Below are positions 1-27,659 of a stretch of DNA of 62,091 nt, piece after piece. The stretch covers positions 1 to 62,091 of the forward strand of contig JAFKMZ010000015.1 in assembly GCA_017305055.1 (NCBI GenBank). Reading direction: 5' to 3'. The notes beneath the pieces are model-generated. The model made no database searches. It was not told the DNA's origin and saw only the letters and a list, made by a program, of their open reading frames with translations. How positions within the stretch are numbered: the first letter of the stretch is position 1; every line of letters begins with the position of its first letter. Made by a program: the position numbers and the translations under genes. The DNA comes from Lysobacterales bacterium. GTDB taxonomy: Bacteria > Pseudomonadota > Gammaproteobacteria > Xanthomonadales > Rhodanobacteraceae.

Positions 1-810
1 GCGCCGTCGATCCAGGCCAAGATGGATGCGATGGGGATCGATCCGACCACCTATGATCCGGACAGCATCCAGGGCAGCTACCTGATCAATCCGGGCCGCA
101 CCTCGATCTTCCAGATCCCGAAGCTGGCCGGTGGCTACTATGAGGTGCCCATGGACTGGGTGAAGGACTTCCACTTCAACACCACGCTGAAGCGCAAGTA
201 CTACGGTGTCAACTTCTACCTGGAGCATCCGTTCGACGGCAAGTGGTTTGGCCGCGTGGACTACCTGTACTCGCGCAGCTACGGCAACAGCGAGGGCCAG
301 GTGCGTACCGACATCGGCCAGACTGACGTCTCCGCCACGGTGGACTGGGACTACGCCGCGGTGATGGACTACGCCAACGGCGACCTGGCCAACAGCCGCC
401 GGCACCAGATCAAGGCGTATGGTTCTTACAAGCTGACGCCCGAGTGGATGGTTTCCGGCAACGTGTTCATTGCTTCCGGTGCGCCGAGGACATGTCTGGC
501 GCGCTACGGCGGTCCAAACGGGACCAATCCAGGCCTCGGTTATGGCCCTTACTATCACTTCTGCAGGGATGGCCAGCCATACTCCCCGGGCAAGCAGCAC
601 GAGCCGTGGACCTACCAGGTCAATCTCGGTGCGGAGTATCGGCCTATGTGGGCCGAGCAGAAGCTGGCGTTCAACGTGAACGTGCTGAACGTGTTCGACA
701 ACCAAGTGATCACGCAACGTTATCCGCGTTCCGACAATGTCAATTGGCTGCGGCCGTATGGTTCGCAGACCGCGCGCTCGGTGCGGTTCGGCATCACCTA
801 CGACTTCTGA
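1..810 (+). CDS. TonB-dependent receptor, Oar-like, C-terminal part (5' truncated by window)
   Basis: The reading frame is open from the first base, so the true start lies upstream. The visible 269 residues are the last beta-strands of an outer-membrane barrel: alternating aromatic strands, the block LEHPFDGKWFGR, and a C-terminal ITYDF with the terminal Phe used for outer-membrane insertion. The same block and ending occur in the receptor at 11670-14792, so the two are paralogues of the Oar-like class (carboxypeptidase-regulatory-like domain, plug, barrel). Such receptors import or bind large substrates using TonB energy; the ligand cannot be read from this fragment. A strong terminator follows 25 bases after the stop. 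Confidence 0.93.
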   Translation, partial: APSIQAKMDAMGIDPTTYDPDSIQGSYLINPGRTSIFQIPKLAGGYYEVPMDWVKDFHFNTTLKRKYYGVNFYLEHPFDGKWFGRVDYLYSRSYGNSEGQVRTDIGQTDVSATVDWDYAAVMDYANGDLANSRRHQIKAYGSYKLTPEWMVSGNVFIASGAPRTCLARYGGPNGTNPGLGYGPYYHFCRDGQPYSPGKQHEPWTYQVNLGAEYRPMWAEQKLAFNVNVLNVFDNQVITQRYPRSDNVNWLRPYGSQTARSVRFGITYDF

Positions 811-834
811 TTCCTGGTCGTCGTGTACTGGACC

Positions 835-866
835 AAAGCCGCCGGGTTCGCCCGGCGGCTTTTTTT
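835..866 (+). terminator. Rho-independent terminator of the first receptor
   Basis: A perfect 10-bp GC-rich stem (AGCCGCCGGG with CCCGGCGGCT) closes on a TTCG tetraloop and runs into seven T residues. It lies just after the receptor stop at 810 and before the convergent DegV gene. Confidence 0.93.
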
Positions 867-894
867 GCTCCCGGAGGTGGCGGGGAAGCCGTGC

Positions 895-1839
895 TCAGAA
901 TTCCGCTGCGTGCGGCCGCGTGGCAAAGCCGACGCTGAGCGCGCCTTCGCCGACGTTGATCATGCCGGTGATGCTCATGGGCGCCTCGAGCAGCGTGACC
1001 CCGGTGGCGGCGCAGGCATCGCACAGCTCGCTGTAGCCGGGCAGCCGGCCCAGGGTGGACAGATCGCCGCCGTAGCTCACGCAGACTGCCGGTACCAGCA
1101 AACCCTCCCGCACCTGGCGCGCGGCGTAGGCAAGCAGGGTCTTGGCGCCGGATTCGAAGCCGCGTACCTTGCCCACCGCTCCGGTGTCGCCGCGATAGCA
1201 GCGCAGCAGGGGTTTGACGTCCAGCGCCGAGCCCAGGGTGGCGCCCAGCCAGCCCACGCTGCGGTCGTTTTTCTTCTTCGCCCTGGCCCGCAGGTAATAC
1301 AGGTCGCGCGGCAGCATGTAGCCGTAGCTGTTGTCGGCGACATAGGCCAGCCGCGCCCGGATCGCGGCCGGAGCGTGGTCTCCGGCAATCATGCGGGTGG
1401 CCTCGAACACCGCAGGCGCCGCCCCGGCAAAGAGGTTGCGCGTGTCGATGACGCGCATCATGAATGGCCCGGCCGCTCCGATGGCAGAGCGTGCCTCGCG
1501 GTAACCCATGAGGATGCGGTAGCTTGCGCGATGGACGTTGTCGTTGATGGTGCTGCGCGTGGCGGTGATGGTGAGGCAGAACACGCAGTCGTAGTGCAGC
1601 ACCAGCTTGTCGAGGAACAGGCGCTCCACGGCTTCGACCGGACACGACGCCGTCTCCGCCTCGTGGCTGCGGTCGCCAAGCTTGCGCTCGATGAAACGCC
1701 GGGTTTCCGCCGGGCTGCGGTCGTCCATGAAGGTCTCGCCGTCGACCTTGACCGTGGTCGGCAGGACCGTGACTCCGTGCTGCAGCAGGAAGTCGTGCGG
1801 CAGGTCGCAGGCCGCATCGATGGTCACAGCGAAACGCAT
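895..1839 (-). CDS. DegV family protein (fatty-acid-binding EDD fold)
   Basis: The product has 314 residues, close to the 280-310 usual for DegV/FakB proteins. The N-terminus MRFAVTIDAACDLPHDF matches the family opening, where an Asp-Ser or Asp-Ala pair is followed by CDLP. TVLPTTVKVDGETFMDD and the CLTITATRSTINDN stretch fit the next two conserved blocks around the bound acyl carboxylate. In Firmicutes the family hands exogenous fatty acids to the FakA kinase; no FakA-like gene is visible here, so the role is open. The ATG at 1839 was chosen because the family motif begins right there; the frame extends 44 residues upstream without family similarity. The gene converges on the truncated receptor, with the terminator between them. 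Confidence 0.85.
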   Translation of the reverse strand: MRFAVTIDAACDLPHDFLLQHGVTVLPTTVKVDGETFMDDRSPAETRRFIERKLGDRSHEAETASCPVEAVERLFLDKLVLHYDCVFCLTITATRSTINDNVHRASYRILMGYREARSAIGAAGPFMMRVIDTRNLFAGAAPAVFEATRMIAGDHAPAAIRARLAYVADNSYGYMLPRDLYYLRARAKKKNDRSVGWLGATLGSALDVKPLLRCYRGDTGAVGKVRGFESGAKTLLAYAARQVREGLLVPAVCVSYGGDLSTLGRLPGYSELCDACAATGVTLLEAPMSITGMINVGEGALSVGFATRPHAAEF

Positions 1840-2162
1840 CGTGGACTCCGGCAGGGCTTGACCTGAAAACATAGCACGCACGCCCCGTGACCGATGGTCC
1901 GGCCGGGCTGCGGCGCTCCGCGTGCCCAGGAGCCGCGCCAGCATGGCGCTTGATCGCGTTGTTGGCGCCACCTATCCTGCCCAGAATCAATCGCACTCAC
2001 TTGGGCGCCGTCATTCCCGCGAAGGCGGGGACCAGTGCCTTGCATGACCTGGCAACGGTCGGAGTCACTGGATTCCCGCCTTCGCGGGAATGACGGGAAT
2101 GGGTTTCGCGCTGGAGTAAGTGCCATCCTGCCCAGGTTTCAAAGCATCCGGGAAGTATCCTC
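1840..2162. other. Intergenic region between divergent genes
   Basis: This 323-bp gap separates the DegV gene from the oxygenase operon. It holds the dispersed inverted repeat listed at 2010-2094. Promoters for both directions should lie here, but no convincing -35/-10 pair was picked out. Confidence 0.6.
2010..2094. repeat. Dispersed REP-like inverted repeat, copy A1
   Basis: Two 20-base arms, GTCATTCCCGCGAAGGCGGG (2010-2029) and its exact reverse complement (2075-2094), flank a 45-base spacer. Each arm is itself a small hairpin (CCCGC-GAAG-GCGGG). A second element with the same core is at 24337-24403. The layout matches the paired REP-like elements scattered between genes in many gammaproteobacteria. 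Confidence 0.85.
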
Positions 2163-2726
2163 ATGCCATTGACCCGCGCCATGCAGGTGGAAGGCCGCCC
2201 GATCCGCGTGTATGACGGGCTGGTGCCCTTGCCGCTCATCAAGCAGCTCACCGATGCGTTCATGGGCGCGAACTTCGTCAAGGACGAGATCGCCCGCGCC
2301 GAGACCTCCCAGTTCCGGCATTGGGAAATGGGCATACCGCTGGAGACGGCCAGGCAGTTGGCGGTCTACCAGCCCACCCTCGAGGTCTTGCGCGATTTCG
2401 AGGGCGCGGCCGGGTATCGCATCGAGCGTTGCTACTGCAACCATGCCGCGTTTGGCGAGATGCTGTTCATCCACACCGACACCAGGCGCCCGGGACAGCA
2501 GGCACTGACCGCCCTGTGGTACATCGCGCCGGAATGGAATGCCGAATGGGGCGGCGAGACGCTGTTCTACGACTCGCAGTTGGATGCCGTGGCGGTGGTT
2601 ACGCCCAGGCCCGGGCGGCTTGCGGTGTTCGACGGCAACATTCCCCACGTCGGCCGTCCGCCCAACCGCATCTGCTACGCCCCGCGCTATACCCTGGCAT
2701 TCAAGCTGGAGCCGGCCGCCGGCTGA
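2163..2726 (+). CDS. Fe(II)/2-oxoglutarate-dependent oxygenase, prolyl-4-hydroxylase type
   Basis: The 187-residue protein is a single double-stranded beta-helix domain without TPRs. The iron-binding triad is visible: H104-T-D106 in FIHTDTRRPGQ, the distal H162 in GNIPHVGRPP, and R175 in APRYTLAFK, placed to bind the 2-oxoglutarate carboxylate. WGGETLFYD is the usual strand before the distal His. The family hydroxylates amino-acid side chains, often proline, using O2 and 2-oxoglutarate. It opens an apparent operon with the TPR-sulfotransferase 16 bases downstream. An alternative ATG exists at 2181. The substrate is unknown. Confidence 0.9.
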   Translation: MPLTRAMQVEGRPIRVYDGLVPLPLIKQLTDAFMGANFVKDEIARAETSQFRHWEMGIPLETARQLAVYQPTLEVLRDFEGAAGYRIERCYCNHAAFGEMLFIHTDTRRPGQQALTALWYIAPEWNAEWGGETLFYDSQLDAVAVVTPRPGRLAVFDGNIPHVGRPPNRICYAPRYTLAFKLEPAAG

Positions 2727-2742
2727 ACTCCGGGGCAACCGT

Positions 2743-4182
2743 ATGCAGGCCACCTCTTCCGCTTCCAGCGACGCCCGGCTCACCGAGGCCAGGGCGCTGT
2801 ATCAGGCCGACGAGCCGGCACGCGCCGAGGTGTTGCTGCGCGCGTTGCAGCAGCGTGACCCCGCCAGCGAAGAGGTCGGCATGTTGCTGGCCAACGTGCA
2901 GCGCAGCCAGGGGCGCTTCAGTGCCGCGGCGGAGACCTTGTTCACGCTGAGCCGGGCCAACGACTTCGCGGCCGGGATGAGCCTGCGCAGCGTGGACTTC
3001 ATCCGCCAATGCGACCGGCATGCGGTGGCCGAAAGCATCTGTGTCGCGGCGCTCGCGCGCGGCAACGTGCCGGCCGAGCTGCTGATGCAGGCGGGCAACG
3101 TTGCCCGCGAGCTGGGCCAGTTCGACACCGCGCGTACGCGTTATCTGGCGGCGCTGGATGCAGGCATTGACCTGGACCGCCACCACGTGCTGAACGCGCT
3201 GGCCAATACCCGGCGCTATGTCGATCCGGTGGATGTCGAGATCGGCTGGTTCGCCCGGCATTTCGCGGCAGGGCGCCTACCGCCACGGGCACTGGCCTCG
3301 GCTGGCTTCGCCCTCGCCAAGGCGCAGGGCGATCTCGGCGAGCACGCGGCGGCGGCCCAGACCCTGCAGCGAGCCAACAAGATCCTGCACGGCGTGTGGC
3401 GTTGGGATGCCGATGCCTGGCAGCGCTTCGTCGCCGCCCGGATGCAGGAGATCGTGGCGCCGGCGAATGGGGAGCCCGGGCGCGCGTTCGTACCAGTCTT
3501 CATCATCGGCATGCCGCGCACCGGCACGACGCTGACGGCGACCCTGCTGGCCCAGGCGACCGGGGCCCGGGACCGTGGCGAGCTGCGCACCCTGCGCTTC
3601 GTCGCCGAGCGCCTGGTTGTCGGCGGCCACCTGGGCAGCCAAGCCGCCATCGCCGAAGCGGCGCGGCTCTACCGCACGCTGGCGGTCCAGGACGATGCGC
3701 CGGCAAGCTGGTACATCGACCAGGACCCGATGAACTTCCGCTACCTGCATGTCGTCGCGGCCATGTTTCCGCAGGCCCGGGTGATCCACCTGCGGCGTGG
3801 GCGGGCGGATACCGCCTTGTCCCTGTGGGCTCAGGATTTCGCCCACGCCGACCTCGGCTTTGCCTACGATTTTGCCGACATGCGCGCGTGCATGACTGGG
3901 CACGATGCGTTGATGCAGCACTGGCAGCGGACCTTGCCGCTGTCCATCTTCGAGCTCGATTACGAGACCCTGGTCAGCGAGCCGGACGCCACGCTGGCCC
4001 GTCTGGGGGCGTTCATTGGCGCACCGCCCCGGGCGCGGGCGCAGGACGGGGAGGTGCCGGCACCGGTCCTCTCGGCCAGCGTCTGGCAGGCGCGTCAGCC
4101 GGTATATCGGACCTCGGTAGGGCGTTGGCGCGCGTATGCGCCATTCGTTCCGGAACTGGCGCGCTTCGCCGGCATCCCGTGA
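2743..4182 (+). CDS. TPR-repeat sulfotransferase
   Basis: The 479-residue protein has an N-terminal helical TPR-like half (about 10-225) and a C-terminal sulfotransferase domain. The PAPS 5'-phosphosulfate loop is IIGMPRTGTTL (254-264). The 3'-phosphate motif is around RVIHLRRGRADTALSLW. Such enzymes move sulfate from PAPS to tyrosine or carbohydrate hydroxyls. No signal peptide is visible, so it is predicted cytoplasmic. The ATG at 2743 lies 16 bases after the oxygenase stop; the frame extends upstream only as a shadow of that gene. It is one of four such enzymes in the first 19 kb, and its linkage to a hydroxylase suggests a common substrate. Confidence 0.88.
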   Translation: MQATSSASSDARLTEARALYQADEPARAEVLLRALQQRDPASEEVGMLLANVQRSQGRFSAAAETLFTLSRANDFAAGMSLRSVDFIRQCDRHAVAESICVAALARGNVPAELLMQAGNVARELGQFDTARTRYLAALDAGIDLDRHHVLNALANTRRYVDPVDVEIGWFARHFAAGRLPPRALASAGFALAKAQGDLGEHAAAAQTLQRANKILHGVWRWDADAWQRFVAARMQEIVAPANGEPGRAFVPVFIIGMPRTGTTLTATLLAQATGARDRGELRTLRFVAERLVVGGHLGSQAAIAEAARLYRTLAVQDDAPASWYIDQDPMNFRYLHVVAAMFPQARVIHLRRGRADTALSLWAQDFAHADLGFAYDFADMRACMTGHDALMQHWQRTLPLSIFELDYETLVSEPDATLARLGAFIGAPPRARAQDGEVPAPVLSASVWQARQPVYRTSVGRWRAYAPFVPELARFAGIP

Positions 4183-4278
4183 TGGACCACGTGGTGCTGC
4201 CGCAGCCGGTGGCTGCGGATCGTGCGCGTATTGGCGCATGGGCTTGTGCCGTTGCGGCGGTGCGGGCACGCTTGGCCG

Positions 4279-6111
4279 ATGGTTTCTTCCTCGCCCGCGC
4301 AATCCCTTGCCGTGCTGCAAACCGCCGCCGGCTTGCTGCAGGCGGGTCGGCATGCGCAGGCACGCCCCATGTTGCAGGCGCTGGTGCAATCGAACCCCGG
4401 CATGGCGCAGGCCCATCGGCTGCTCGCCGGGTCGTTTTTCCAGACCGACGAACACGCGCTGGCCCTGCAGGCCGTGCAGACCTGGCTTGGCCTGCAGCCG
4501 GAGAACGTCGAGGCCCATGTCCTGCGCGCGCGGGTGCTGGTGGCTGCCGGGCAGCTGGCCGAAGCCGAGCGCACCCTGCGCCGGGTCCTGGTCCTGGCGC
4601 CGCACGACCTGGTTGCGGCATCCATGCTGGCGCGCCTGCTGCTCGGCGCCAACCGCGTGAGGGAAGTGGGCGGCCTGCTGGAGCCGCTGTTCCGGGACGG
4701 TCGCGCCAGCCCTGAAATCCTGATGCTGTATGGCCACGCCTTGATGGCGCTGGGGGAATCCGCGCAGGCCGAGCGGGTGTTCCGACGTTGGCTCGAGCTC
4801 AAGCCCAATGACGGCGACGCGCGCCTGCGCCTGGCTGCCGTGCTCGCCGATACTGAGCGTTATGAAGAGGCGGCGCGCGAAGCACGCGCCGGCATCGCCA
4901 AGGTCGGCAAGACACCGGAGGCCGCGTTTGTGCTGGCGCGTACGCTCCTGGGCCAGAGCCGGTTCGACGAAGCCGAAGCGGAGCTGCGGCAACTGGTCCG
5001 GGCCTGGCCTGGCCATGTGCTGGCGCAGACCAACCTGGCCGAACTGGTGTGGATGCGCAGCGGTGACGCCGCCCTGGCCTGTGCGGAGCTGGATGTAGCC
5101 CTGCAGCGGCAACCGCAGTTGCAGGCCTTGCGCGTCAGCAAGGCGCGCCTGCTGCTCAGTGCGCGTCGTGCGCATGATGCCCTGGCTGTCGTCGATGCCG
5201 GCCTGGCGCTGGCGGACCGCGATCCCGAGCTGTTGCGCACTGCGAGCGCGATCGCCCTGGAGTTCGATGGGCAACGTGCGCTGGACTACGCACGGCGCCT
5301 GCTGGCTGTCGCGCCAAACGACTACGGCGCCCGCGTGGCGTTCGGCAACGCTTCGCTGGCGGTCGGGCACGCGCAGGCCGCGCTCGAGGCGGCCGATTCG
5401 CTGCACCGGGCCAATCCCACCGATGGCCAGGCCGTGGCGATGCGGGCCGATGCCCTGCGCATGCTGGGCGACCCGCGCTACCGCGAGCTGCTCGACTATC
5501 AAGGCCTGGTACGGCCGGCGCTCCTGGACGTGCCGGATGGCTGGCCCAGTCTCGCGGCTTATCTCGACGACCTGGTGGCGGACCTCACCCGCTCACATAC
5601 CTTGCGCGCGCATCCGGTAATCAACTCGCTGCGTGGAGGCACCCAGGTGCAACTGGTGCCGCAGGATTCGGCATACGCGGCAATCCGGGCCTTCCCACAG
5701 GCCATCGACGGCCCGATCCGGCGCTACATGGAGGCGATCGGGCATGGCACGGACCCCATGCGCTGCCGCAACACCGGCCGCTACCGGATCAGCGGCATGT
5801 GGTCGGTGCGCCTGCGCCCGCATGGTTTCCACGTCAACCACTACCACCAGGACGGCTGGATTTCCTCGGCTTGCTACCTGCATCTGCCGCCGGCAATGGC
5901 CGAGCGGCCGGGCGAGGGCTGGATCCAGTTCGGCGAGTCGGCGTTTCCCACCACGCCGCCACTCACGCCGGAATACGTCGTCAAGCCCGAACCCGGCCTG
6001 CTGGTGTTGTTCCCCTCCTACATGTGGCACGGCACCGTGCCGTTTTCCGGTGGCGCGGAAGACTATCGGATGACGATCGCCTTCGACGTCGTGCCGGTTG
6101 CTGCCGGATGA
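4279..6111 (+). CDS. TPR protein with C-terminal 2OG-Fe(II) oxygenase domain
   Basis: The product is about 610 residues. Residues 5-430 form repeated TPR helix pairs, for example AEAERTLRRVLVLAPHD and ESAQAERVFRRWLELKPND. The C-terminal 180 residues match the putative 2OG-Fe(II) oxygenase family often fused to TPRs (Pfam PF13759-like). H518 and H521-x-H523 precede GWISSACYL, and a distal H584 sits in YMWHGTVPF, followed by an Arg-containing strand (RMTIAFD). These residues would make the iron and co-substrate site. The ATG at 4279 was preferred; a GTG at 4222 would add 19 residues. The gene sits between two sulfotransferases and probably shares their transcript. Confidence 0.87.
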   Translation: MVSSSPAQSLAVLQTAAGLLQAGRHAQARPMLQALVQSNPGMAQAHRLLAGSFFQTDEHALALQAVQTWLGLQPENVEAHVLRARVLVAAGQLAEAERTLRRVLVLAPHDLVAASMLARLLLGANRVREVGGLLEPLFRDGRASPEILMLYGHALMALGESAQAERVFRRWLELKPNDGDARLRLAAVLADTERYEEAAREARAGIAKVGKTPEAAFVLARTLLGQSRFDEAEAELRQLVRAWPGHVLAQTNLAELVWMRSGDAALACAELDVALQRQPQLQALRVSKARLLLSARRAHDALAVVDAGLALADRDPELLRTASAIALEFDGQRALDYARRLLAVAPNDYGARVAFGNASLAVGHAQAALEAADSLHRANPTDGQAVAMRADALRMLGDPRYRELLDYQGLVRPALLDVPDGWPSLAAYLDDLVADLTRSHTLRAHPVINSLRGGTQVQLVPQDSAYAAIRAFPQAIDGPIRRYMEAIGHGTDPMRCRNTGRYRISGMWSVRLRPHGFHVNHYHQDGWISSACYLHLPPAMAERPGEGWIQFGESAFPTTPPLTPEYVVKPEPGLLVLFPSYMWHGTVPFSGGAEDYRMTIAFDVVPVAAG

Positions 6112-6156
6112 CCGTGAATCTCCGCTCCGACCCCTCGAGACCAGGACCCAAGTTGC

Positions 6157-7974
6157 ATGGCCGATAACAGCCTGATCGATCCCATTGTCGCTGCCCTGCA
6201 GGCTGGGAATCCGCAGCTGGCCGAACAGCACTGCCGCGCGGCGCTCGGACGGGCGCCGGACGAACCCGACGTGCTGGTGCTGCTGGCACTCGGCCTGCAG
6301 CAGCAGGACCGGTACCAGGACGCGCTGGCAGTATTTGCCCGGCTGGTCGAAGTCTGTCCGGAAGACAGCCTGCACTGGTCCAACTACGCCTCCGCGCTGG
6401 CCCGTGCCGGCAACCTGGAAGCCGCCGAGCAGGCTGCGGAAACCGCGGCGCGTTGCGCGCTCAACGATCCCGAGCGCCTGGACGAACTGGGCGTGATGCA
6501 GCTCGGGAACGGCAAGCCTGCCGCAGCGCAGGCAACCTTGATGCGCGCTTTCGACCTCGACCCCGATTCCGTGAGTATCCGCCTGCATGCCGCGCGGGCG
6601 TGCATTGCCTGCCACGACCATCGCGCCGAGATACTGCTGCAACCGTGGCGCAGCTGGCTGCCACTCGCGGACCAGCAAATGGCTGAGCTGGCCCAGCTGC
6701 TGGTCCAGGTCAGTGAACTCGACGACGGCATGGAACTGCTCGAGGATCGGGTGCGCCGTGCGCCTGACGATTGGTCGGCACAATTGCTCCTGGCGAAGGT
6801 GTACGAACGCGTCAACCGGCTGGATGAGGCGCGGGCCAGGCTGCAATGGATCCTCGCGGCCATACCCGCCGATGCCGATCCCGGCATCCGGCGCGAAGTG
6901 GAAAGCCAGCAGGCCCAGCTCGCCATGCGCCGGCGCGACTACGCGGCCGCGCGTGCGCTGCTGGAACACGTCGGCCCCGGCCACGCCGATCATGACACCC
7001 ATTATTTCTCCCTGGCCAAGGCCTGCGACCGGCTCGGCGATACGGACGCGGCGATGCAGGCACTGGAGACCGCGCATGCCATCCAGGTCCGGCTGCTGGG
7101 ATTGTCCAATCCGCACCTGCTGGAAGCGGACGCGCCCCTGCTGCCGCACGTTGACGACCGGGTGAGCGAGGCGGATTACCAGGCGTGGCCGCAGCTGAAG
7201 GCGCCCGACGCCAGCCAGTCGCCGGTGTTCGTGGTGGGCTTTCCCCGCTCCGGCACCACACTGCTCGAACAGATGCTCGACGCGCACCCGCGCCTGCAGT
7301 CCATGGACGAACGCCCGTTCATGAATCAGCTTGCCAATCGGCTGGGAGACATCGGCATCGAAATCCCGGGGGATTTGCGTGTACTGACCCAGCGCGATTG
7401 CGACGAGCTGCGCAAGGGCTATGTGATCCTGGCCTGCGGGAAGGTGCCGCGGCGCTGGGATGCGCGCCTGGTGGACAAGAATCCGCTGAACATGTCGTGG
7501 CTGCCCATGATCCACCGCATCTTCCCGCACGCGAAATTCGTGTTCGTGCTGCGCCATCCGTGCGACGTCCTGCTGAGCTGCTACCTGCAGGACTTCCAGG
7601 CGGCGCCGCTGGTGTCCGCCTGCCGCTCGCTCGAGCACCTTGCCCATGCCTATGTTGCGGCAATGGAAGGCTGGCTGTACCACGCCAACCTGTTCCAGCC
7701 CGACGTGTTCGTTTCGCGTTATGAGGACCTGGTGGCCGATACCCCGGCGCAGACCCGCCGGATAGCCGACTTCCTCGAACTCGGCGAGGCCGAGACCATG
7801 CTGCGGTTTGCCGAGCGTGCCCGGGAGAAGGGCTATATCCGGACCCCGAGCTATAGCCAGGTGGTCGAGCCGATCAGCGCCCGGGGGGTGGGTCACTGGC
7901 GGCAGTATGCGGCGTACTTCGAACCCGTATTGCCCATCCTCCAGCCCATGCTGACGCATTGGGGCTACGCCTGA
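6157..7974 (+). CDS. TPR-repeat sulfotransferase
   Basis: This 605-residue enzyme has TPR helices over roughly residues 1-330 and a sulfotransferase domain after that. The PAPS-binding loop GFPRSGTT is at 361-368, followed by LLEQMLDAHPRLQSMDERPF. The 3'-phosphate motif lies in FVLRHPCDVLLSCYL. It is clearly paralogous to the protein at 14930-16762, with the same length, loop and DERPF block. No export signal is visible. It ends the run 2163-7974 of oxygenase, sulfotransferase, oxygenase, sulfotransferase, all in one direction with gaps of 16 to 96 bases, and sits upstream of a TonB receptor. Confidence 0.9.
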   Translation: MADNSLIDPIVAALQAGNPQLAEQHCRAALGRAPDEPDVLVLLALGLQQQDRYQDALAVFARLVEVCPEDSLHWSNYASALARAGNLEAAEQAAETAARCALNDPERLDELGVMQLGNGKPAAAQATLMRAFDLDPDSVSIRLHAARACIACHDHRAEILLQPWRSWLPLADQQMAELAQLLVQVSELDDGMELLEDRVRRAPDDWSAQLLLAKVYERVNRLDEARARLQWILAAIPADADPGIRREVESQQAQLAMRRRDYAAARALLEHVGPGHADHDTHYFSLAKACDRLGDTDAAMQALETAHAIQVRLLGLSNPHLLEADAPLLPHVDDRVSEADYQAWPQLKAPDASQSPVFVVGFPRSGTTLLEQMLDAHPRLQSMDERPFMNQLANRLGDIGIEIPGDLRVLTQRDCDELRKGYVILACGKVPRRWDARLVDKNPLNMSWLPMIHRIFPHAKFVFVLRHPCDVLLSCYLQDFQAAPLVSACRSLEHLAHAYVAAMEGWLYHANLFQPDVFVSRYEDLVADTPAQTRRIADFLELGEAETMLRFAERAREKGYIRTPSYSQVVEPISARGVGHWRQYAAYFEPVLPILQPMLTHWGYA

Positions 7975-14845: not shown

Positions 14846-14929
14846 GTGCTGGGCTGGAAATTCACCGACAATGGCAAGCCGCCCGACGGCGGATCCGCCA
14901 TGGGCGACCGCCTTGCCACCGGAAGCGAG

Positions 14930-18318: not shown

Positions 18319-18451
18319 CTACAGGCGTCCGCATCGGCGTGAAGGGCTGCCGCAGGCTTGCTGCGTGCGGCTGGTGCAGGGCATGGCGCGGCACGGCATC
18401 GCGTATTATGCCGGTCAGTCGCCAGCCACGCAGGTCCAGCACGGTATCGCC

Positions 18452-19774: not shown

Positions 19775-19789
19775 GATTCCGCCGCTCCT

Positions 19790-19821
19790 TGCCCGCCCGT
19801 CCGTGCCGACGGTGGCGGGCA
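19790..19821. terminator. Possible bidirectional hairpin between convergent genes
   Basis: TGCCCGCC (19790-19797) pairs with GGCGGGCA (19814-19821), with a short inner CCGT/ACGG stem. It sits between the hydroxylase stop and the short minus-strand frame. No T-run follows on either strand, so it may only protect transcript ends. Confidence 0.45.
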
Positions 19822-19829
19822 GCGTGGCG

Positions 19830-19946
19830 TCAGGGCCGTGCGCATTGCTGGCCGAAGCGGGTGCCGGCTGGGCCGTGGTGCAGGTGAGTCCCGACGGCGC
19901 GAGCGCAGGCGCCGCAATTGGCAAGGATAAGGGTGCAGCGTTGCAT
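19830..19946 (-). CDS. Possible short peptide, 38 residues, unrecognised
   Basis: I do not recognise this product. The ATG at 19946 is preceded by AAGGGAGATACTCA, so GGGAG sits at good ribosome-binding distance, which is uncommon for chance frames. The peptide starts MQRCTLILANCGACARAVG and contains four Cys (positions 4, 11, 14, 35), two His and a basic C-terminus. There is no signal peptide or known domain. It lies tail to tail with the TPR-hydroxylase gene and faces a long gene-poor stretch on its upstream side. It could be a small substrate or leader peptide of the neighbouring modification enzymes, or an unused frame. Confidence 0.35.
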   Translation of the reverse strand: MQRCTLILANCGACARAVGTHLHHGPAGTRFGQQCARP

Positions 19947-21228
19947 TGAGTATCTCCCTTGGCCGAGCTTTGAATAGCAGCCCAATGGCGATGACGGTCG
20001 CGCTGCGGGGTCTATGCAAACGCATAGGTATAGGGCGATTTTTGACCCCGAATGCCCGGCATTCGCGAACTGATAATCACTCGTAATAAAAGGGAATGAA
20101 TGGCTATTTGAATATGTGACTCCATTGTTTCTCGTCGCTCTGTGACGGATGACGGTCGCGGGCATGCCCCGATCCACATAACCATACGGTAGCGTATCCA
20201 TGACTTTTGGCACATGACGTTGATTTGGGTGGGGCATACGGTGTCCTTAAGGGGTCGTTATCTAAAGGTCATCGCCGAATTATTGAACGACATGGCGGGA
20301 TCCGGTATCCGTAGGGCTGCAGAGAGGTCTTCAGCGCCCGGATGAGTCCATTAATCAAAGGATGTACTGGCGCAAGCAGCACAGTTCGTCCGATAGCCTT
20401 GCGGGATTTGTGGCGGCAGTTGATCGCGAATAGAGGTGGACTGCGCCGATGTTATCTGGAGTGGGGTGAGGGCTTGAGCCTCTGGCTCGCCCGACAACGT
20501 CAGTTGTGAACCGCTGCATTTTTGGGCGGGCTTGTCGTGGTCGATTCGGTGACCCGACGTGGTGGGGGGTGCGGTGGATCGTGGGATCAATATTCTTTGT
20601 CGACGGTTGCCATGGCAGCTGCACAGGCCGGCGGCAACGCAGTCGCCCCATGGCATTCAACGGCTTGAGACGCTTGCCGCCCTACGGGGAGTCATCCGTT
20701 GAAGGTTGCCGGGCAGGCCCCGCAGGTTCGGTCGTTGCCGAAGAATTCCGCTCGGGCCGGCGGGCGCCGTTGCGTCCACCGGGCATGAGGTTGCAGGGCG
20801 AAAGGGATTATGCGTGGCCTACGCCCATCTGTGCGCGGCTGGACCAGCATATGCCAACACCCGGTAAAAGGATGGTTATTACATGGCGGCGACTGCCTCA
20901 TGGTATGGGGCGGATACGTCTTGAACGAAGTTGAAGATCCATCTTGAATGGGAGGGGAATCCATCATTGCACGGAAGGAGATGTTGGTAATCGGGGAAGG
21001 GTAATTTCAAGTGTTGGTCCGGGGACGTATGTGCCAAGTGTCCGGTAAACACCCAGGCTGTATTGCCACGGTGGAGGTGGGGTGCGCGTTATTTTTGTAT
21101 GACTAACTCTTGATAATGGTGTGGCGTAAAAGCTGGTTGGCAGGGCATGGGCGCGGGGGTTGCTCAGATGGCAGCGTTTGACGGGCACCTCTCTGGTCCA
21201 CGGGGATAATCAACTGGAGGGTATGTTT
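19947..21228. other. Gene-poor, AT-richer gap of about 1.3 kb
   Basis: No supported gene is visible. Open frames here are short, lack ribosome-binding sites and resemble no family I know. The stretch around 20020-20120 is clearly AT-richer than the flanking genes and holds short inverted repeats: TATGC-AAAC-GCATA near 20013 and CGAATGC-CCG-GCATTCG at 20049-20065. There is also a Fur-like half-site, TGATAATCA, near 20070. No transposase remnant or target duplication was recognised. It may be a long regulatory leader for the receptor at 21229, a decayed gene, or the home of an untranslated RNA. Confidence 0.5.
21089..21117 (+). promoter_or_regulatory. Candidate sigma-70 promoter for the TonB receptor
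   Basis: A good -10 hexamer, GATAAT (21112-21117), lies 17 bases after a weak TTATTT -35 (21089-21094), about 110 bases before the receptor start. Support comes mainly from the -10 element and its AT-rich setting. Confidence 0.3.
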
Positions 21229-24126
21229 ATGAAACTTGGGGTCAATAAGATTTCTACCGCCGTTCGCCTGGCGCTCTCGCTGGGCACGGTCATCGCAGTG
21301 GGTGCATCCAGTACGGCATTCGCACAGGACGCCACCGCACCAGCGGCCGAACAACAGGCACAGACACTGAAGGCGGTCGTGGTGACAGGCTCGCGCCTGC
21401 CCAGCGTGACCATCACCGCGTCGAGCCCGGTCACCACGATCGACGCGCAGGCGTTGACGGTGACGGGTACCACCAGCGTCGACCAGCTGGTCAACCAGCT
21501 GCCGCAGCTCAGCCCGTATTTCGACCAGTTCCAGAACAACGGTGCCACGGGTTACCCGACCGCCGACCTGCGTGGACTGGGCACCAAACGTACCCTGGTC
21601 CTCATTGACGGGCAGCGTGTCCAGGCCGGCAACAACTCCAGCGGTGCCGTTGACCTGAGCCAGATTCCCGGGGCGCTGGTGCAGCGGGTGGACATCCTCA
21701 CCGGCGGCGCCTCGGCCGTGTATGGCGCCGACGCCGTGTCCGGCGTGGTGAACTTCGTCCTGAACCACGACTTCGAGGGCGTCCAGTTCGACTACAAGCT
21801 CTCGGGATACAGCCACGACAACCGCAACAAGTACATGCAGGGCCTGGAATCTGCCAAGAACTACCCCGCGCCCAACGGCGGCAGCGGCTTCAACGGCAAG
21901 ACGCGCGAAGCCGATGCGCTCTTTGGCGGACATTTCGCCGATGGCGACGGCCACGCGATGGGCTGGATCTCCGCGCAGAAGTCCGACGCCGTGATGTCGG
22001 ACGCGCGTGACTACTCGGCCTGCTCCCTGACCAACTCGGGCCTGGGCTGCGGTGGCTCCGGTACCGCGGCAAATCCGAACTTCATTGCCATCGACCATGC
22101 CGGCGCCAATGGCGAAGTGCACATGGATCCGACTACGGGCCAATGGCTCAATGGTGCCGCCACCCCCTATAACTACGCCCCGTCCAACTACTATCAGCGT
22201 CCCGGCACGCGCGTCAACCTGGGTGCGTCGATCAAGTACCATGTCAACGATGCGTTCGAGCCGTACATGGATGCGATGTACATGCACCGCCGCAGCGAGT
22301 TCCAGTTGGCCCCGTCCGGTGCGTTCTTCGAGCAGGTCGACGTCGACTGCGCCACGGCTACCGGCGCGATCGGCAACTTCTGTTCCCAGGTCGCTCCCAT
22401 GCTCGGCCTGGACACCTCGCAACCCCTGGCGGTCCAGGTCGGCAAGCGCAACGTCGAGGGCGGCCCGCGCCGCAGTGCGATCACCAACGACGCTTACCGC
22501 TTCGTGCTTGGTGCCAGGGGCGACATCAGCACGCGCTGGTCGTATGACGTGTCCGGTGTCATGGGCGAGACCAGCTACCTGAGCGTTGGCACGGGCGACT
22601 TTCTCTCCGACCGCGTCGTCCCGGCGATCTTGGGCTGCCCGAGCGGCTCCTATGCGGGCTGCATCCCTTACAACGTATGGCAGCCGAACGCGATTACACC
22701 GGAGGCGGTAGCGGGCCTGGGCGGCGTCAGCCTGCGGCCGACCCGTACGCGCCTGATGGACATCAACGCGTTCGTGCGTGGCGATCTCGGCTGGGCCCTG
22801 CCCTGGGCCGGCGCCGACACGATCAGCATGGTGGCTGGTACGGAATGGCGCAAGTCGAACATGAGCTCCACCGCCGACAGCAATTCCCAGCATGGCAATT
22901 TTTCGGGTGCCGGTGGCCCGACGCTGCCGATTGCAGGGCAGATCCAAGCCAAGGAGTTCTACACCGAGTGGGGCATTCCGATCATTTCGGATATGGGCGT
23001 GCTGAAATCCTTCGCCGCGGATGTCGGCTACCGCTACTCGGACTACAAGCACATGGGTTCGACCGACACCTACAAGATCGGCCTCAACGCAAACTTGGGC
23101 GACATGTTCCGGCTGCGCGGTGGCTACAACCGTGCCGTACGTGCCCCGAACGTCAATGAGCTCTTCGCTACCAAGCAGATCGGCTTGTTCAGCGGCGCCG
23201 ATCCCTGTGCGGGACCGACTCCCACTGACACTGCCGCCCAATGCGCGAACACTGGCGTGACCGCCGCGCAGTACGGACACGTCCTCGACAATCCGGCCAG
23301 CCAGTACAATCAGTTCACCGGCGGCAACCCGGACCTGAAGCCGGAAAAGGCCGATACCTATACTCTCGGCTTCGCGGTCACGCCGTTCCAGGGCCTGGAG
23401 GCCACGCTGGACTACTACGAGGTCAAGATCAAGGACACGATCGGCACCGTCGGTGCCAACACGACGCTGGACCTCTGCGCCAAGACCGGCAATCCGTTCC
23501 TGTGCAACAACGTCAAGCGCAACCCGGTCACGGGTGACCTCTGGCTTGGGGAAGTCGGCCAGGTAATCAACCTGACGAGCAATTTCGGCAATCAGACGGC
23601 ACGTGGCATCGACCTGAATGCGAGCTACGTCTGGCGGATGTTTGGCGGGCGGGCGCAGGCATCCATGGCAGGAAGCCGGCTGCTGAGCCTGGAGAAGGAC
23701 CCGCTGCCGGGTGTCAACAGCAACGCCGTCTATGATTGCGCAGGCAAGATCAACACGTCCTGCAACAATCCGCCGAGCCCCAAGTGGCGCCACCTGGTGA
23801 ACTTGAACTACTCGAAGGACTGGTGGAGCGTCAACGTGCGCTGGCGCTACTTTGGCCAGGTGCGCTACGTCAACAACGACGGCTCGTTCGCGACCACGGA
23901 CAAGCTCCTGTTCAACCACGACCACAAGATCTCGGCCTACAACTGGCTGGATGTCTCCGGCACGTTCCATATCGGCACGCATGTCGACCTGACGGTGGGT
24001 GTGAACAACATCACCGACCGTGCGCCGCCGCTGGTGGGTGGCTCGCTGGTGGACAACGCGAACACCCCCGGAGGCTACGATGAGCTGGGTCGCTACTACT
24101 TCACCAATGTCAGTGTGAGTTTCTGA
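21229..24126 (+). CDS. TonB-dependent receptor
   Basis: The 965-residue precursor has a signal peptide ending SSTAFAQ, a TonB-box-like LKAVVVTGSRLPS, a plug with LRGLGTKRTLVLIDGQRV and GGASAVYGADAVSGVVNFVL, and a barrel ending NVSVSF. Its signal peptide and plug resemble those of the 8409-11375 receptor, so the two are paralogues. The ATG at 21229 was chosen over the ATG at 21223 because the GGAGGG ribosome-binding site (21216-21221) then has seven bases of spacing instead of one. It has a terminator of its own and lies between the gene-poor gap and the convergent TPR-oxygenase pair. The ligand is unknown. Confidence 0.95.
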   Translation: MKLGVNKISTAVRLALSLGTVIAVGASSTAFAQDATAPAAEQQAQTLKAVVVTGSRLPSVTITASSPVTTIDAQALTVTGTTSVDQLVNQLPQLSPYFDQFQNNGATGYPTADLRGLGTKRTLVLIDGQRVQAGNNSSGAVDLSQIPGALVQRVDILTGGASAVYGADAVSGVVNFVLNHDFEGVQFDYKLSGYSHDNRNKYMQGLESAKNYPAPNGGSGFNGKTREADALFGGHFADGDGHAMGWISAQKSDAVMSDARDYSACSLTNSGLGCGGSGTAANPNFIAIDHAGANGEVHMDPTTGQWLNGAATPYNYAPSNYYQRPGTRVNLGASIKYHVNDAFEPYMDAMYMHRRSEFQLAPSGAFFEQVDVDCATATGAIGNFCSQVAPMLGLDTSQPLAVQVGKRNVEGGPRRSAITNDAYRFVLGARGDISTRWSYDVSGVMGETSYLSVGTGDFLSDRVVPAILGCPSGSYAGCIPYNVWQPNAITPEAVAGLGGVSLRPTRTRLMDINAFVRGDLGWALPWAGADTISMVAGTEWRKSNMSSTADSNSQHGNFSGAGGPTLPIAGQIQAKEFYTEWGIPIISDMGVLKSFAADVGYRYSDYKHMGSTDTYKIGLNANLGDMFRLRGGYNRAVRAPNVNELFATKQIGLFSGADPCAGPTPTDTAAQCANTGVTAAQYGHVLDNPASQYNQFTGGNPDLKPEKADTYTLGFAVTPFQGLEATLDYYEVKIKDTIGTVGANTTLDLCAKTGNPFLCNNVKRNPVTGDLWLGEVGQVINLTSNFGNQTARGIDLNASYVWRMFGGRAQASMAGSRLLSLEKDPLPGVNSNAVYDCAGKINTSCNNPPSPKWRHLVNLNYSKDWWSVNVRWRYFGQVRYVNNDGSFATTDKLLFNHDHKISAYNWLDVSGTFHIGTHVDLTVGVNNITDRAPPLVGGSLVDNANTPGGYDELGRYYFTNVSVSF

Positions 24127-24148
24127 GCCACGGACCTGGCTGAACCTG

Positions 24149-24403: not shown

Positions 24404-24428
24404 GAGCAAAGGCTTGTTCAGCCCATCA

Positions 24429-26288
24429 CTAAGCTACTGGAATCATGTCGCAGGCCACGGTGAGGCGGACCGCGTCGTCGCGAAACGGTACCGTGCCGTG
24501 CCACATGTAGGAAGGAAACAGGGCGAGGCTGCCTGGCCGTGGATGCAGCACGCGGCGCGCAGGCAGTTCCAGGCCGAGCTCGGTTGGCGGTTGTCCAAAC
24601 TGGATGGCCCCCGCGTCGGCACCGGAGCCTTGCATGATGGGCGGCAGGAAGACGTAGAACGCCGAGCTGATCCAGCCGAAGGGGTGGACGTGGTTGACGT
24701 GGAAGCCGGTGGACACGAGCTTCACCGACCACGCGCCGCGAACGCGAAGGTCGCGGGCGCCCCGCCCCAGGAAGGGATGGCGGTCGTCGGTGGGCAAGCT
24801 GCGCGTCCAGCGCCTGGCGGCGGAAAGGATGCCGTGCTCGACCGCCTGGATCGCCGGCTCTGGACGTCCGAACAGATTGCCCGGGGTCTGCGTGCCTTGC
24901 CGCAGGGTCTGCTGCACCGGCGCACGCGAGGCCCGATGGAGCTCCAGCAGCGTCGCCTCGAGCGCATGCAGGAACTGCCTGAGGTCGGCATACCCCTCCG
25001 GCACGTCGATGTCGACCAGCGTGATGAGCCGGTCGTAATCGCACAGCCAGAACTCGCGCGCATCCCCCAGGAGTCGCCACGCCGTGGCCAGATAGCCAAG
25101 CGCCTCCTGGTTGTACGGATCCCGCGCGATCACATCCTGTGCCCGCGCGGCGGCGGCCTGCCACTGCCCGGTCTTGAGCAGGTGTCTGGTGTAGGTGTTG
25201 ATAAAGTCCGGATCGTGCGCGCCGCGCTTCCGATAAAGCTCGTCGTAGATCGGTGCCGCGTCGGCAGAGCGCCCCAGTGCCTCGAGCGTGTCGGCTGCAA
25301 ATCGCTGGAGCACCGGATGGTCGCCACGCCGGCGCAACTCGGCCACCTGTTCGAGCGCCGCGTCGCCGCGCCCGGTCTGCCTGAGCAGCCGGGCATAGGT
25401 GAGGCGCAACTCTCCGTCGTCCGGATGGGCGGCGACCGCCTGTACGAGGCGGGCGAGCGGATCCTCCGTTTGACCCGCGGGCTCGCCGTATTCCCACAGG
25501 ATGCTGGCCAGCGTGCGTTGCCCGGGGGCGTAACGCGGATGGGTCGCCGTCAGTCGGCGTGCCATCGCGATCGCCGCATCGATCCGGCCGGAGTCGAGCA
25601 GGACCCCGGCCTGCGCGTCCAGCAGCTCCGGTGTTTCCGGACCGGACCGGCGGGCTTCGTCGTAGCAGGCCAGCGCCTCCTCGAGACGGGCCTGGCGGCG
25701 CAGGATGTGCCCCAGATGCAACAGCAGCCTGGCAGGCCGTTGCTGCCCGCAGGCGAGCGCCTTGCGCAAGGCCTGCTCCGCGTCGGCGACCCGATCCTGC
25801 GCATCCAGCGTGCTGGCCAGCCCGTGCCAGGCCGTGGCGGAGGTGGGCATGAGTGTGACTGCTTGCTGCAATGCTGCGTGTGCCTCATCGAGCCGGCCGC
25901 GGTCCAGCTCGGTCAGCCCGAGGTCCAGCCAGGCCTGGCCGAACGCAGGCACCCGTTCCAAGGCCCGATGCCACAGCTCCGCGGCCGCATCCAACCGGTC
26001 GAGGCGGCGCAGCGCCGTGGCGAAGTTCGCCAGCAGGTGGGCGTTGTCCGGCGCCAGCTCCTGCGCGCGCCGGAACGGCACGCAGGCGGCTTCGGGTTTG
26101 CCGCTCTTGGCCAGCGCGACGGCCCACAGGTGCCAGGCGTCGGCCGCGTCGGGAGCTTGCGCCGTGACGTCCTGCGCCAGTCGGATCGATTCGGCCAGGT
26201 CACCCGCACGCAGCGCGCGTTCGGCCGCCGCCAGCTGGTGCCTCTGGAGGTCGGAGAGTGGCTGGGGTGATGGGCGTTCGGCGGGCAT
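24429..26288 (-). CDS. TPR protein with C-terminal 2OG-Fe(II) oxygenase domain
   Basis: The 619-residue protein begins with about 430 residues of TPR helices, for example AAELWHRALERVPAFGQAWL and EEALACYDEARRSGPETPEL. The C-terminal domain is the same putative 2OG-Fe(II) oxygenase type as in 4279-6111. The site reads FHVNHVHPFGWISSAFYV, with distal LFPSYMWHGTVPF and then VRLTVACD. The two enzymes share H-x2-H-x-H-x2-GWISS, but the Asp of the first enzyme's HQDG is replaced here, which suggests the His residues are the iron ligands. Twenty-one bases separate it from the hydroxylase gene upstream on the same strand, so the two probably form an operon. Confidence 0.88.
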   Translation of the reverse strand: MPAERPSPQPLSDLQRHQLAAAERALRAGDLAESIRLAQDVTAQAPDAADAWHLWAVALAKSGKPEAACVPFRRAQELAPDNAHLLANFATALRRLDRLDAAAELWHRALERVPAFGQAWLDLGLTELDRGRLDEAHAALQQAVTLMPTSATAWHGLASTLDAQDRVADAEQALRKALACGQQRPARLLLHLGHILRRQARLEEALACYDEARRSGPETPELLDAQAGVLLDSGRIDAAIAMARRLTATHPRYAPGQRTLASILWEYGEPAGQTEDPLARLVQAVAAHPDDGELRLTYARLLRQTGRGDAALEQVAELRRRGDHPVLQRFAADTLEALGRSADAAPIYDELYRKRGAHDPDFINTYTRHLLKTGQWQAAAARAQDVIARDPYNQEALGYLATAWRLLGDAREFWLCDYDRLITLVDIDVPEGYADLRQFLHALEATLLELHRASRAPVQQTLRQGTQTPGNLFGRPEPAIQAVEHGILSAARRWTRSLPTDDRHPFLGRGARDLRVRGAWSVKLVSTGFHVNHVHPFGWISSAFYVFLPPIMQGSGADAGAIQFGQPPTELGLELPARRVLHPRPGSLALFPSYMWHGTVPFRDDAVRLTVACDMIPVA

Positions 26289-26309
26289 GCGCGCTACAGG
26301 CAGCGCCGA

Positions 26310-27659
26310 TCAGTCCGGCGCGCGGACGCGATCGCGAAAGGCCTCGGTGAAATCGCCGATGGCCTCCACCAGGTCGGTGATGGCCAAGCGCTCGACTTCA
26401 GTCATGTCCGGGTTCCAGCAATCGAAGATCAACACCACCCGGGTCCGGTCACTCTTGTTCCAGGCCTCGTGCTCCATGGTGTCGTCGAACGTCACGCAAC
26501 GGCCTTCCTGCCAGGCGTGGATCTCGCCGCCAACGCGCAGCGCGCAGTCGGGCGGCACGATGAGCGGCAGATGCGTCGTCACCCGGGTATTGGTGACGCC
26601 GCGATGCGGCAGGATGTGCGTTCCTGGGCGCAGCACCGAAAACAGCGTCTCGGGCGAATGGTTCGGCACGCGGTCCAGCGGCAGCGTATCGAGTGCCGCC
26701 GCCGTGTGCGGACAGCGGTCGCAATGCTCGTCATAGCGCTTGCCATGGCGATGGAAGAAATACGCGTCCCAGGTCGCCCGGCCCGGTCCGAACGCCGCGA
26801 GCATGTCCGGCCTGTCCTTGATCTTGTCGCCCAGGAAAGGCTCCAGGTCCTGCGTCTCCTGCAGCACGGCGCGCAATTCATCGCGTATCACGCTGGTCTT
26901 CGCCTCGAGCTCCTCGTACCACGGGAGCTGCTCACGCGCGTAATAGGTGCGGGCGGGTACACCGGGGAAATGCAGGAACTTCGATCGCTGCCGCGGATCC
27001 TGCCATTGGACCGGCTGCTCGCCGAGGTAGCCCGCGAGCGCCTGCTCGACCCGCACCAGCTCGGAACGGCCGTAGCGCTGGCGCAACGGTTCGAGAACCC
27101 CGTCGAACAACGCATGGCGGCCGGTGGCGATGTAGCGTATGGCGTTCTGTACCGCGTCACGTCCGCCAGGTGGCGTGGTCTCGTCACTCAGCCATTGACC
27201 TTGTCTCTGCGCAAGGTTTACGGCCGAGAAATATTCGATCAGCGCCTCGTGCGAATCGCCCAGCCGCTCCAGTGCAATCCCCAATCGCAGGCGGGCGACG
27301 AACATGCCTGGAGCAAGCTGCAGCGCCCGCCGCAGGCTGTCCGCCGCCGCCCGCATGTCGCCGTCCAGCATCTGCGACGTACCGAGCTGATGCCATGCGG
27401 ACGCATCACCCGGATGCGCCTGCGTGGCCGTTTGCATCAGTTCGACGGCACGTCGGCCAGCGCCGCGCAGCCATTGACGGTTCGCCAGATATTTCAGCGC
27501 CTCGAGATCGTCGGGCTGGTTCTCCAGTACCTGCGTATACGCCGCTTCAGCCGCTGCCTCGTCGTTGCGCCCAACGGCGGCGCGCGCATGCTCGCGGAGT
27601 CCGACCAATTGCTGGTTTGCTTCATTCCCCATCGGCACACTCGCTGGTGATGCGTCCAT
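26310..27659 (-). CDS. TPR protein with aspartyl/asparaginyl beta-hydroxylase domain
   Basis: This 449-residue protein is a close paralogue of 18452-19774. It has TPR helices in the first 150 residues and then the beta-hydroxylase domain with ILPHRGVTNTR, GGEIHAWQEGRCVTFDDTME, HEAWN and the Arg ten residues after the second His. It is predicted to hydroxylate Asp or Asn in a protein or peptide and has no export signal. The ATG at 27659 has GGGAA five to six bases upstream; the internal ATG at 27632 has a weaker site. It shares a transcript with the TPR-oxygenase at 24429-26288 and lies 26 bases after the glutaredoxin fusion gene, so all three could be co-transcribed. Confidence 0.88.
   Translation of the reverse strand: MDASPASVPMGNEANQQLVGLREHARAAVGRNDEAAAEAAYTQVLENQPDDLEALKYLANRQWLRGAGRRAVELMQTATQAHPGDASAWHQLGTSQMLDGDMRAAADSLRRALQLAPGMFVARLRLGIALERLGDSHEALIEYFSAVNLAQRQGQWLSDETTPPGGRDAVQNAIRYIATGRHALFDGVLEPLRQRYGRSELVRVEQALAGYLGEQPVQWQDPRQRSKFLHFPGVPARTYYAREQLPWYEELEAKTSVIRDELRAVLQETQDLEPFLGDKIKDRPDMLAAFGPGRATWDAYFFHRHGKRYDEHCDRCPHTAAALDTLPLDRVPNHSPETLFSVLRPGTHILPHRGVTNTRVTTHLPLIVPPDCALRVGGEIHAWQEGRCVTFDDTMEHEAWNKSDRTRVVLIFDCWNPDMTEVERLAITDLVEAIGDFTEAFRDRVRAPD

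Follow-up and report, generated by a model that had tools for sequence, protein, structure and literature searches.

TPR-fused oxygenases and sulfotransferases recur beside TonB-dependent receptors in proteobacterial genomes

Introduction

To our knowledge, it is chiefly in animals and plants that tyrosine sulfation and the beta-hydroxylation of Asp or Asn residues of proteins have been described. Here we describe a group of bacterial genes in which tetratricopeptide repeat (TPR) arrays are fused to oxygenase and sulfotransferase (ST) domains, next to genes for TonB-dependent receptors (TBDRs). The group lies at the start of a contig from a Lysobacterales bacterium (JAFKMZ010000015.1, C80), which was analysed over its entire length of 62,091 bases and is called the window; the genome comprises 3.5 Mb in 108 contigs. 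Pfam profile scans, with an alignment for one receptor fragment, placed nine enzymes and four TBDRs within positions 1-27,725, the enzymes being four PF13469 STs, two PF13759 oxygenases, two AspH-type PF05118 oxygenases and one PF13640/FlmC-like oxygenase.

Several described systems resemble parts of this set. Animal AspH likewise carries N-terminal TPRs and a C-terminal two-histidine oxygenase, and it gave the best match in the PDB in both sequence and fold; the window enzymes differ from it in being bacterial, in standing beside receptors and STs and, in a structure model, in the geometry between TPRs and oxygenase. The protein-tyrosine sulfotransferases TPST1 and TPST2 have a PF13469-type domain and could be aligned end to end, whereas the window STs have TPR arrays in front and no membrane anchor was seen in them. 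Protein-tyrosine sulfotransferases are membrane-anchored and reside in a secretory compartment. OGT has a TPR superhelix ahead of a C-terminal transferase, and its TPR groove holds an extended polypeptide chain; the sequence match to OGT was confined to the TPRs and its chemistry is different. The lipid hydroxylases LpxO and OlsC share the PF05118 oxygenase domain, but the short LpxO-type forms, of ~315 residues, occupy one conserved site and had neither TBDR nor ST beside them (20/20).

Among bacterial systems, RaxST of the raxX-raxSTAB cluster is a tyrosine sulfotransferase that we liken to the window STs by description, the alignment having been made to the TPSTs; RaxX of Xanthomonas is the bacterial sulfated case known to us (PMC6637879). 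Most methanobactin operons have a TonB-dependent transporter nearby, and two, both from Methylocystis, include a sulfotransferase (PMC3621798). The sulfotransferase MbnS was assigned there to PF00685, and the genome of the window had no MbnB-type match. A literature search, with subscription journals and bioRxiv preprints largely outside its coverage, gave no title or abstract start describing the present composition. As far as searched, the gene association is undescribed, and the methanobactin loci are its nearest precedent.

Results and discussion

Conservation of the gene association

Gene calls and hidden Markov models were built for this analysis, with a floor of 60 residues for called genes and with thresholds varying slightly between scripts. 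Genome-wide, 6 PF13469, 2 PF13759 and 3 PF05118 matches were found, of which 4, 2 and 2, respectively, are in the cluster; a post hoc calculation gave chances of ~6e-8, 6e-5 and 2e-4 for this under uniform placement. The clustering is no local accident, because the corresponding stretches of related genomes mostly hold the same partners and control stretches rarely or never do. Around TPR-AspH genes of relatives, stretches of ~20 kb contained a TBDR in 34/40 and a TPR-ST in 38/40 cases. These 40 were chosen in list order, passing over some entries on short contigs, out of at least ~60 rows with a long frame (a count made by eye), and come from 33 genomes, 31 of them of one genus. Six stretches were without a TBDR: three end in STs (L177, L180, L188), one is cut by the contig (L189) and in two the absence lies within reach (L166, L176).

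In the control with short AspH/LpxO-type genes, all at one syntenic site, neither TBDR (0/20) nor ST (0/20) was detected, and stretches placed arbitrarily, at round coordinates of seven genomes, gave TBDR in 2/20 and ST in 0/20. Fisher values for these linkage comparisons were 5e-11, 2e-8 and 6e-14; the rows are not independent, as the 40 stretches fall into a few orthologous loci, and the values overstate the effect and show its direction rather than an exact probability. When STs were used as anchors (the first ST listed per genome more than 10 kb from the contig start, among the matches listed; two stretches were cut short), a TBDR was found in 11/20 and an AspH gene in 0/20 stretches.

A wider search of contigs with TPR-AspH yielded at least 554 confirmed relatives, of which the best 80 were used and 76 with an anchored AspH gene were counted. 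They include Rhodanobacter, Steroidobacter, Sphingomonas, Brevundimonas, Duganella and Nevskia. Within the 76 loci a TBDR was found in 42, an ST in 40, both in 28, a PF13759 gene in 28 and any partner in 55, many of the loci being cut by contig ends. In the subset with at least 9 kb on each side (n=35), the corresponding figures were 24/35 for TBDRs, 19/35 for STs and 14/35 for PF13759 genes. Both partners crowd towards the oxygenase gene: counted per 2.5 kb bin from AspH in the full-flank loci of other proteobacteria, receptors numbered 17, 10, 6 and 2, and STs 26, 3, 6 and 4. The same partners are frequent around the TPR-AspH genes of alpha- and gammaproteobacteria.

The recurring gene association is real, and the gene set is very probably functionally linked. 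A preliminary description of this DNA had proposed a single modification system and named independent distribution of the families as an outcome that would refute it. The families are not independently distributed: genes for TPR-AspH, TPR-ST and TBDRs are repeatedly found side by side in the genus and its relatives and, beyond them, in many alpha- and gammaproteobacterial loci, where PF13759 genes join less often.

Two TPR-AspH locus types were distinguished in the genus by gene order and length, one member of each being scanned with Pfam. One adjoins M17 and often M1 aminopeptidases (L196); the other adjoins a gene for a glutaredoxin-rhodanese protein (L199), a neighbour that the window shares. 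Other loci carry extra oxygenases (PF13640, JmjC_2) or an M28 peptidase. For 88 neighbour proteins, TPRs and PF13640, with 4 members each, were the commonest matches within the first 25 families of the 134 obtained. Among named records the closest match to the TPR-AspH query was Rhodanobacter sp. B05, whose locus is 100% identical across 19,901 bases to that of a same-genus genome in our set (L163). This places the window in the genus, by the grouping used here, to which Rhodanobacter sp. B05 belongs.

TPR-AspH enzymes

TPR-AspH 1 (18365-19774, plus strand) and TPR-AspH 2 (26310-27632 with the frame open to 27725, minus strand) share 68% identity. The oxygenase domain matched solved AspH with an E value of 5e-27 and with both iron histidines aligned. 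The iron-site pattern is HxG...H, with two His and no acidic ligand; H373 and H418 were invariant in 48 TPR-AspH sequences and G375 was kept in at least 90%. In AspH itself the iron histidines are His679 and His725, a peptide substrate is bound by the TPRs in crystals, and the two domains undergo large shifts upon substrate binding in which the TPRs are key (PMC6817910).

The N-terminal fusion of TPRs to the oxygenase domain was found with Pfam and again in a structure model of TPR-AspH 1, which Foldseek aligned over 472 columns (E 1e-20). The model was built with 48 aligned sequences and has a mean predicted local distance difference test (pLDDT) score of 90.9. Its ten best matches were all AspH oxygenase plus TPR entries, full length, with E ~1e-20 and template modelling (TM) scores of 0.38-0.44, whereas the oxygenase part alone gave a TM of 0.83 of the target with a root mean square deviation of 2.7. 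Since TM is low over the whole length and high for the oxygenase alone, the modelled domain order is that of animal AspH and the hinge between TPR and oxygenase differs. By analogy with AspH, whose targets are Asp and Asn of EGF-like domains, the TPR-AspH enzymes may beta-hydroxylate Asp or Asn.

A set of Brevundimonas AspH-type genes of ~390 residues (L084, L093, L113, L121, L122, L123) was observed in a shared context of its own, free of receptors and STs.

TPR-sulfotransferases

Three of the four STs are encoded on the plus strand, ST1 at 2743-4182, ST2 at 6157-7974 and ST3 at 14846-16762, and ST4 on the minus strand at 16732-18297. The catalytic domain of ST3 aligned end to end with solved protein-tyrosine sulfotransferase chains (E 3e-19 in the domain comparison). 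Compared with these chains the P-loop was kept, as were the Glu, Lys, Arg and Ser positions, which we take to be catalytic; the same positions were located in ST2 by its alignment to ST3 (51% identity). In ST1 a Gln replaces the conserved Lys of the DKxP motif. The loops of the window STs follow PR[ST]G[TS]T, that of ST4 being PRSGST. In a loose pattern test on the fetched sequences, 48/90 STs longer than 450 residues fitted the strict loop pattern and Glu and Lys were kept in 44/48. Since the STs are of the protein-tyrosine sulfotransferase type, tyrosine is most likely their target residue, judged by analogy.

No hydrophobic N-terminal segment was found in ST1-ST4 with a crude measure, the 15-residue mean being at most 1.13 as against 1.6-1.8 in the receptors, and by this hydrophobicity they lack the membrane anchor of protein-tyrosine sulfotransferases. 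The genome encodes an adenosine 5'-phosphosulfate (APS) kinase, therefore the sulfate donor 3'-phosphoadenosine 5'-phosphosulfate (PAPS) can be made.

Of the other STs in the genome of the window, one on contig C83 is directly followed by a TBDR and an M20 peptidase, and one on C79 sits at a contig end. Within one genus the number of PF13469 matches per genome ranged from 1 to 22 among the matches listed. One locus (L018:5034-8057, minus strand) encodes a protein of 1007 residues in which the TPR-sulfotransferase unit occurs twice, in tandem.

PF13759 and PF13640 oxygenases

The two TPR-PF13759 oxygenases are located at 4222-6111 (plus strand; an alternative start was called at 4312) and 24429-26288 (minus strand), with their PF13759 domains at 5797-6087 and 24447-24734. 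The usual HxD/E...H iron ligands were not seen in PF13759 domains; an HxH pair, a distal His and an Arg were each kept in more than 90% of 46 long PF13759 proteins. From a sample of 80 genomes, 40 stretches around PF13759 genes of TPR length and of the short form were collected. A PF13759 gene was called in 38 of them, L024 and L026 being excluded because no gene was called there, and it had TPR length in 32. These 32 contained a TBDR in 19 and an ST in 7 cases, and stretches with only the short form contained a TBDR in 1/6. The fuller set recurs in L018, L020, L022, L023, L029 and L050, which come from the genus itself and from three further families within its order.

A second TPR-PF13759 group (L037, L040, L042-L046, L048) was observed in loci that have a receptor cluster and a GH65-type gene cluster in common, the Pfam scan behind this assignment covering the L042 members.

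The small Fe(II)/2-oxoglutarate oxygenase at 2163-2726 (plus strand) is the one enzyme of the nine for which Pfam reported no TPRs. It matched PF13640 (E 3e-10) and the NCBIfam model FlmC at 109 bits, against a cut-off of 240, and an HTD...H...R motif, of the HxD...H...R form, was read by eye.

Receptors and candidate substrates

A plug together with a barrel was found in three window receptors, all on the plus strand. Those at 8409-11375 and 21223-24126 combine Plug with a TonB barrel, and the Oar-like one at 11670-14792 combines CarboxypepD_reg, Plug and OMP_b-brl_4 and has a single close relative among the collected loci (L185). The fourth is the C-terminal piece of an Oar-like TBDR truncated by the contig edge (<1-810, plus strand); this fragment had no convincing Pfam match and was assigned through an alignment with the receptor at 11670-14792, which shows 49% identity in 266 columns and reaches the barrel end only.

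In a FastTree phylogeny of 91 receptors, the clade of 8409-11375 mixed module receptors with non-module receptors of the genus, including paralogues from the genome of the window. The clade of 21223-24126 extended to Steroidobacter, Sphingomonas, Hyphomonadaceae and Duganella, and 34/36 of its rows were module-linked; most rows entered the tree via module enzymes, and a single genome supplied nearly all of the non-module ones, so that this count is no evidence of exclusivity. The receptor type thus varies while the enzyme types stay.

The preliminary description had considered the receptors themselves as possible modified partners. We compared 36 receptors of the second clade and 23 of the first, most of these 59 having an ST or AspH gene no more than 3 kb away, with 10 non-module paralogues of the own genome, requiring a residue in at least 85% of both clades and at most 60% of the paralogues. 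Only one Thr and one Trp were module-conserved, and no Asp, Asn or Tyr; no receptor site thus marks the receptor as substrate across the compared set. Two smaller comparisons gave group-specific residues. In one locus type (5 rows vs 4), 13 residues were fixed and missing from the nearest paralogues, with three Asn, a single Asp and a single Tyr among them; in the other (9 rows vs 3) there were 4, including one Asn and one Asp. These are possible candidate sites, in groups too small to tell. In sequence terms, the lack of a common residue weighs against one strictly conserved site; variable receptor sites, or action in trans on paralogues too, are compatible with the comparison. That the receptor itself is the substrate we consider rather doubtful.

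A small secreted-looking family of ~150 residues, with a signal-like start and C...RLACYD, LDNGQxW and LGS motifs, was found in 35/80 of the wider TPR-AspH loci (L055-L134, the best 80 of at least 554; E <=1e-5) and also in L020, L023 and L050. In L020, receptor, TPR-PF13759, the ~150-residue protein and TPR-AspH follow the order of the window, which is without that protein. A Pfam scan of three members gave no match for two and a weak VasI match for the third; a structure model (pLDDT 80.8) gave no fold match at E <=0.001. As a universal substrate this family was rejected: the window had no member at E 1, the 40 TPR-AspH loci from relatives had none among their called genes, and distant matches, complete or partial, occurred in 79/80 genomes.

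Proposed mechanism and alternatives

The observations of the preliminary description were confirmed: the window has the four TonB receptors it counted, the fourth as a fragment, together with five oxygenases of three subfamilies, four PAPS-dependent sulfotransferases and TPR arrays in eight of the nine enzymes. It had closed the cluster at 27659; the start of the last enzyme, which is on the minus strand, lies instead at 27632-27725. Its interpretation as a single modification system is partly supported, by the co-occurrence and by ST and AspH domains of peptide-acting types, and is limited by the finding that the families also separate among loci.

We favour a conserved module, tied to TonB-dependent receptors, that modifies an exported polypeptide in the cytosol under the guidance of the TPRs, and give this reading a probability of roughly 0.4. 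Pre-export modification of a protein or peptide is suggested because the TPR layout is common to all eight enzymes, the domains resemble TPST and AspH, and exported receptors are frequent nearby. The enzymes, which have no visible export signal, would act in the cytosol, the site of PAPS synthesis. The TPR superhelices at their N-termini could grip a substrate that is unfolded or a peptide, in the way animal AspH uses its TPRs. The AspH-type domain at the C-terminus would then hydroxylate the beta-carbon of Asp or Asn, and PF13759/PF13640-type domains might hydroxylate some residue of the same chain. The ST domain would sulfate the chain, most likely on Tyr. The modified product may then be exported and act at or through the adjoining receptor, being either the receptor chain, decorated while still inside the cell, or a small secreted protein that partners the receptor. 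A polypeptide substrate seems somewhat favoured on present evidence; the cytosolic site, the residue types and the role of the receptor are likewise put forward by reasoning from these resemblances. In its most specific form, the proposal would be an alpha- and gammaproteobacterial, partly betaproteobacterial, cytosolic system whose TPR-guided enzymes beta-hydroxylate Asp/Asn and sulfate Tyr in a polypeptide bound for export, with the adjoining TBDR as its likeliest identity, and so alter what that polypeptide binds, analogous to AspH and the tyrosine sulfotransferases of the animal secretory pathway; this full version is quite unlikely.

Several results weigh against the favoured reading. The nearest NCBIfam models of both AspH proteins were OlsC and LpxO, both far below cut-off, and PF05118 includes lipid hydroxylases too. 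One TPR-PF13759 group stands in sugar loci, and ST1 has Gln in place of the conserved Lys. Partners are not constant: no TBDR was seen in 9/20 ST-anchored stretches, no partner at all in 9/35 full-flank loci (six being Brevundimonas records), TBDR and ST together in just 28/76 anchored loci, and three Oxalobacteraceae (betaproteobacterial) loci (L068, L071, L131) have AspH and TBDR without ST. The large receptor comparison, with no shared Asp, Asn or Tyr, belongs here as well.

The main rival is that a ribosomal peptide, a metallophore or signal, is tailored, secreted, taken up by the receptor and degraded by nearby peptidases. Its model is methanobactin, whose operons share transporter and sulfotransferase as described above, and peptidases indeed stand by several modules (M1, M17, M28, M20; S15 and M24 in the window), while one of the 88 neighbour proteins was MbnB/TglH/ChrH-like. 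A study of halotolerance lists, under nearly consecutive cluster numbers, a lasso peptide B2 protein, an ABC ATPase, a sulfotransferase, an aspartyl beta-hydroxylase, a second sulfotransferase, PqqD and an Asn synthase (PMC10040529), their gene neighbourhood being read from the numbering. However, no precursor peptide was recognised, no systematic search having been made and called genes having a floor of 60 residues. The genome of the window had no match to PF05114 (MbnB-type) or PF13471 (lasso B2 protease), and on that ground a methanobactin or lasso-peptide locus there was rejected; elsewhere PF13471 occurred in 19/51 genomes searched, counted genome-wide. Taken together, we regard a tailored ribosomal peptide as unlikely. 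A glycan, lipid or small molecule could also be the substrate, through lipid or siderophore hydroxylation or surface-sugar sulfation with the receptors as importers. The LpxO and OlsC members of PF05118, the PF13759 group within GH65 sugar loci and a match of ST3 to heparan sulfate sulfotransferase (9e-6) point that way, but ST3 resembles protein-tyrosine sulfotransferases (2e-19) more than it does sugar sulfotransferases, the TPR and AspH order matches animal AspH across the whole length, and no non-ribosomal peptide synthetase family was among the neighbours scanned, which cover the first 25 of 134 families and a minority of flanking genes. Such a substrate is improbable. There may, finally, be no single pathway, receptor loci being hot spots that accumulate paralogous TPR enzymes with separate substrates. 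This would fit the varying make-up and orientation of the loci, the STs without receptors (9/20), the count of as many as 22 PF13469 matches for a single relative among those listed, the two distinct receptor clades and the 7/32 PF13759 stretches with an ST; it is distinctly unlikely given that TPR-AspH and TPR-ST stand together in 38/40 loci of the genus and kin and that the same pairs recur in alpha- and gammaproteobacteria.

The gene group suggests a little-known route by which bacteria may decorate exported proteins or peptides. If modification of an exported polypeptide is correct, a module pairing both chemistries with outer-membrane import would add a control layer on iron, peptide or sugar receptors and would provide soluble bacterial relatives of AspH and TPST for study. 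If instead a ribosomal peptide is tailored, the module would mark sulfated, hydroxylated peptides to seek.

Neighbouring genes

One gene inside the cluster falls outside these families, a DegV-family gene at 895-1971 (minus strand). Between TPR-AspH 1 and the following receptor, 1.4 kb (19775-21222) had no called gene at the floor of 60 residues. A Fur-box consensus with at most 3 mismatches had 0 matches in the window, a weak test with one consensus tried. Downstream of the cluster, positions 29549-42334 encode an S15 X-Pro dipeptidyl-peptidase, a multicopper oxidase and M20-type and M24 peptidases. Two Sortilin/Vps10-BNR proteins, 74% identical to each other, are encoded on the minus strand at 33233-39286, and in a module locus of the same genus (L022) four relatives of them, at most 79% identical, flank the module on both sides.

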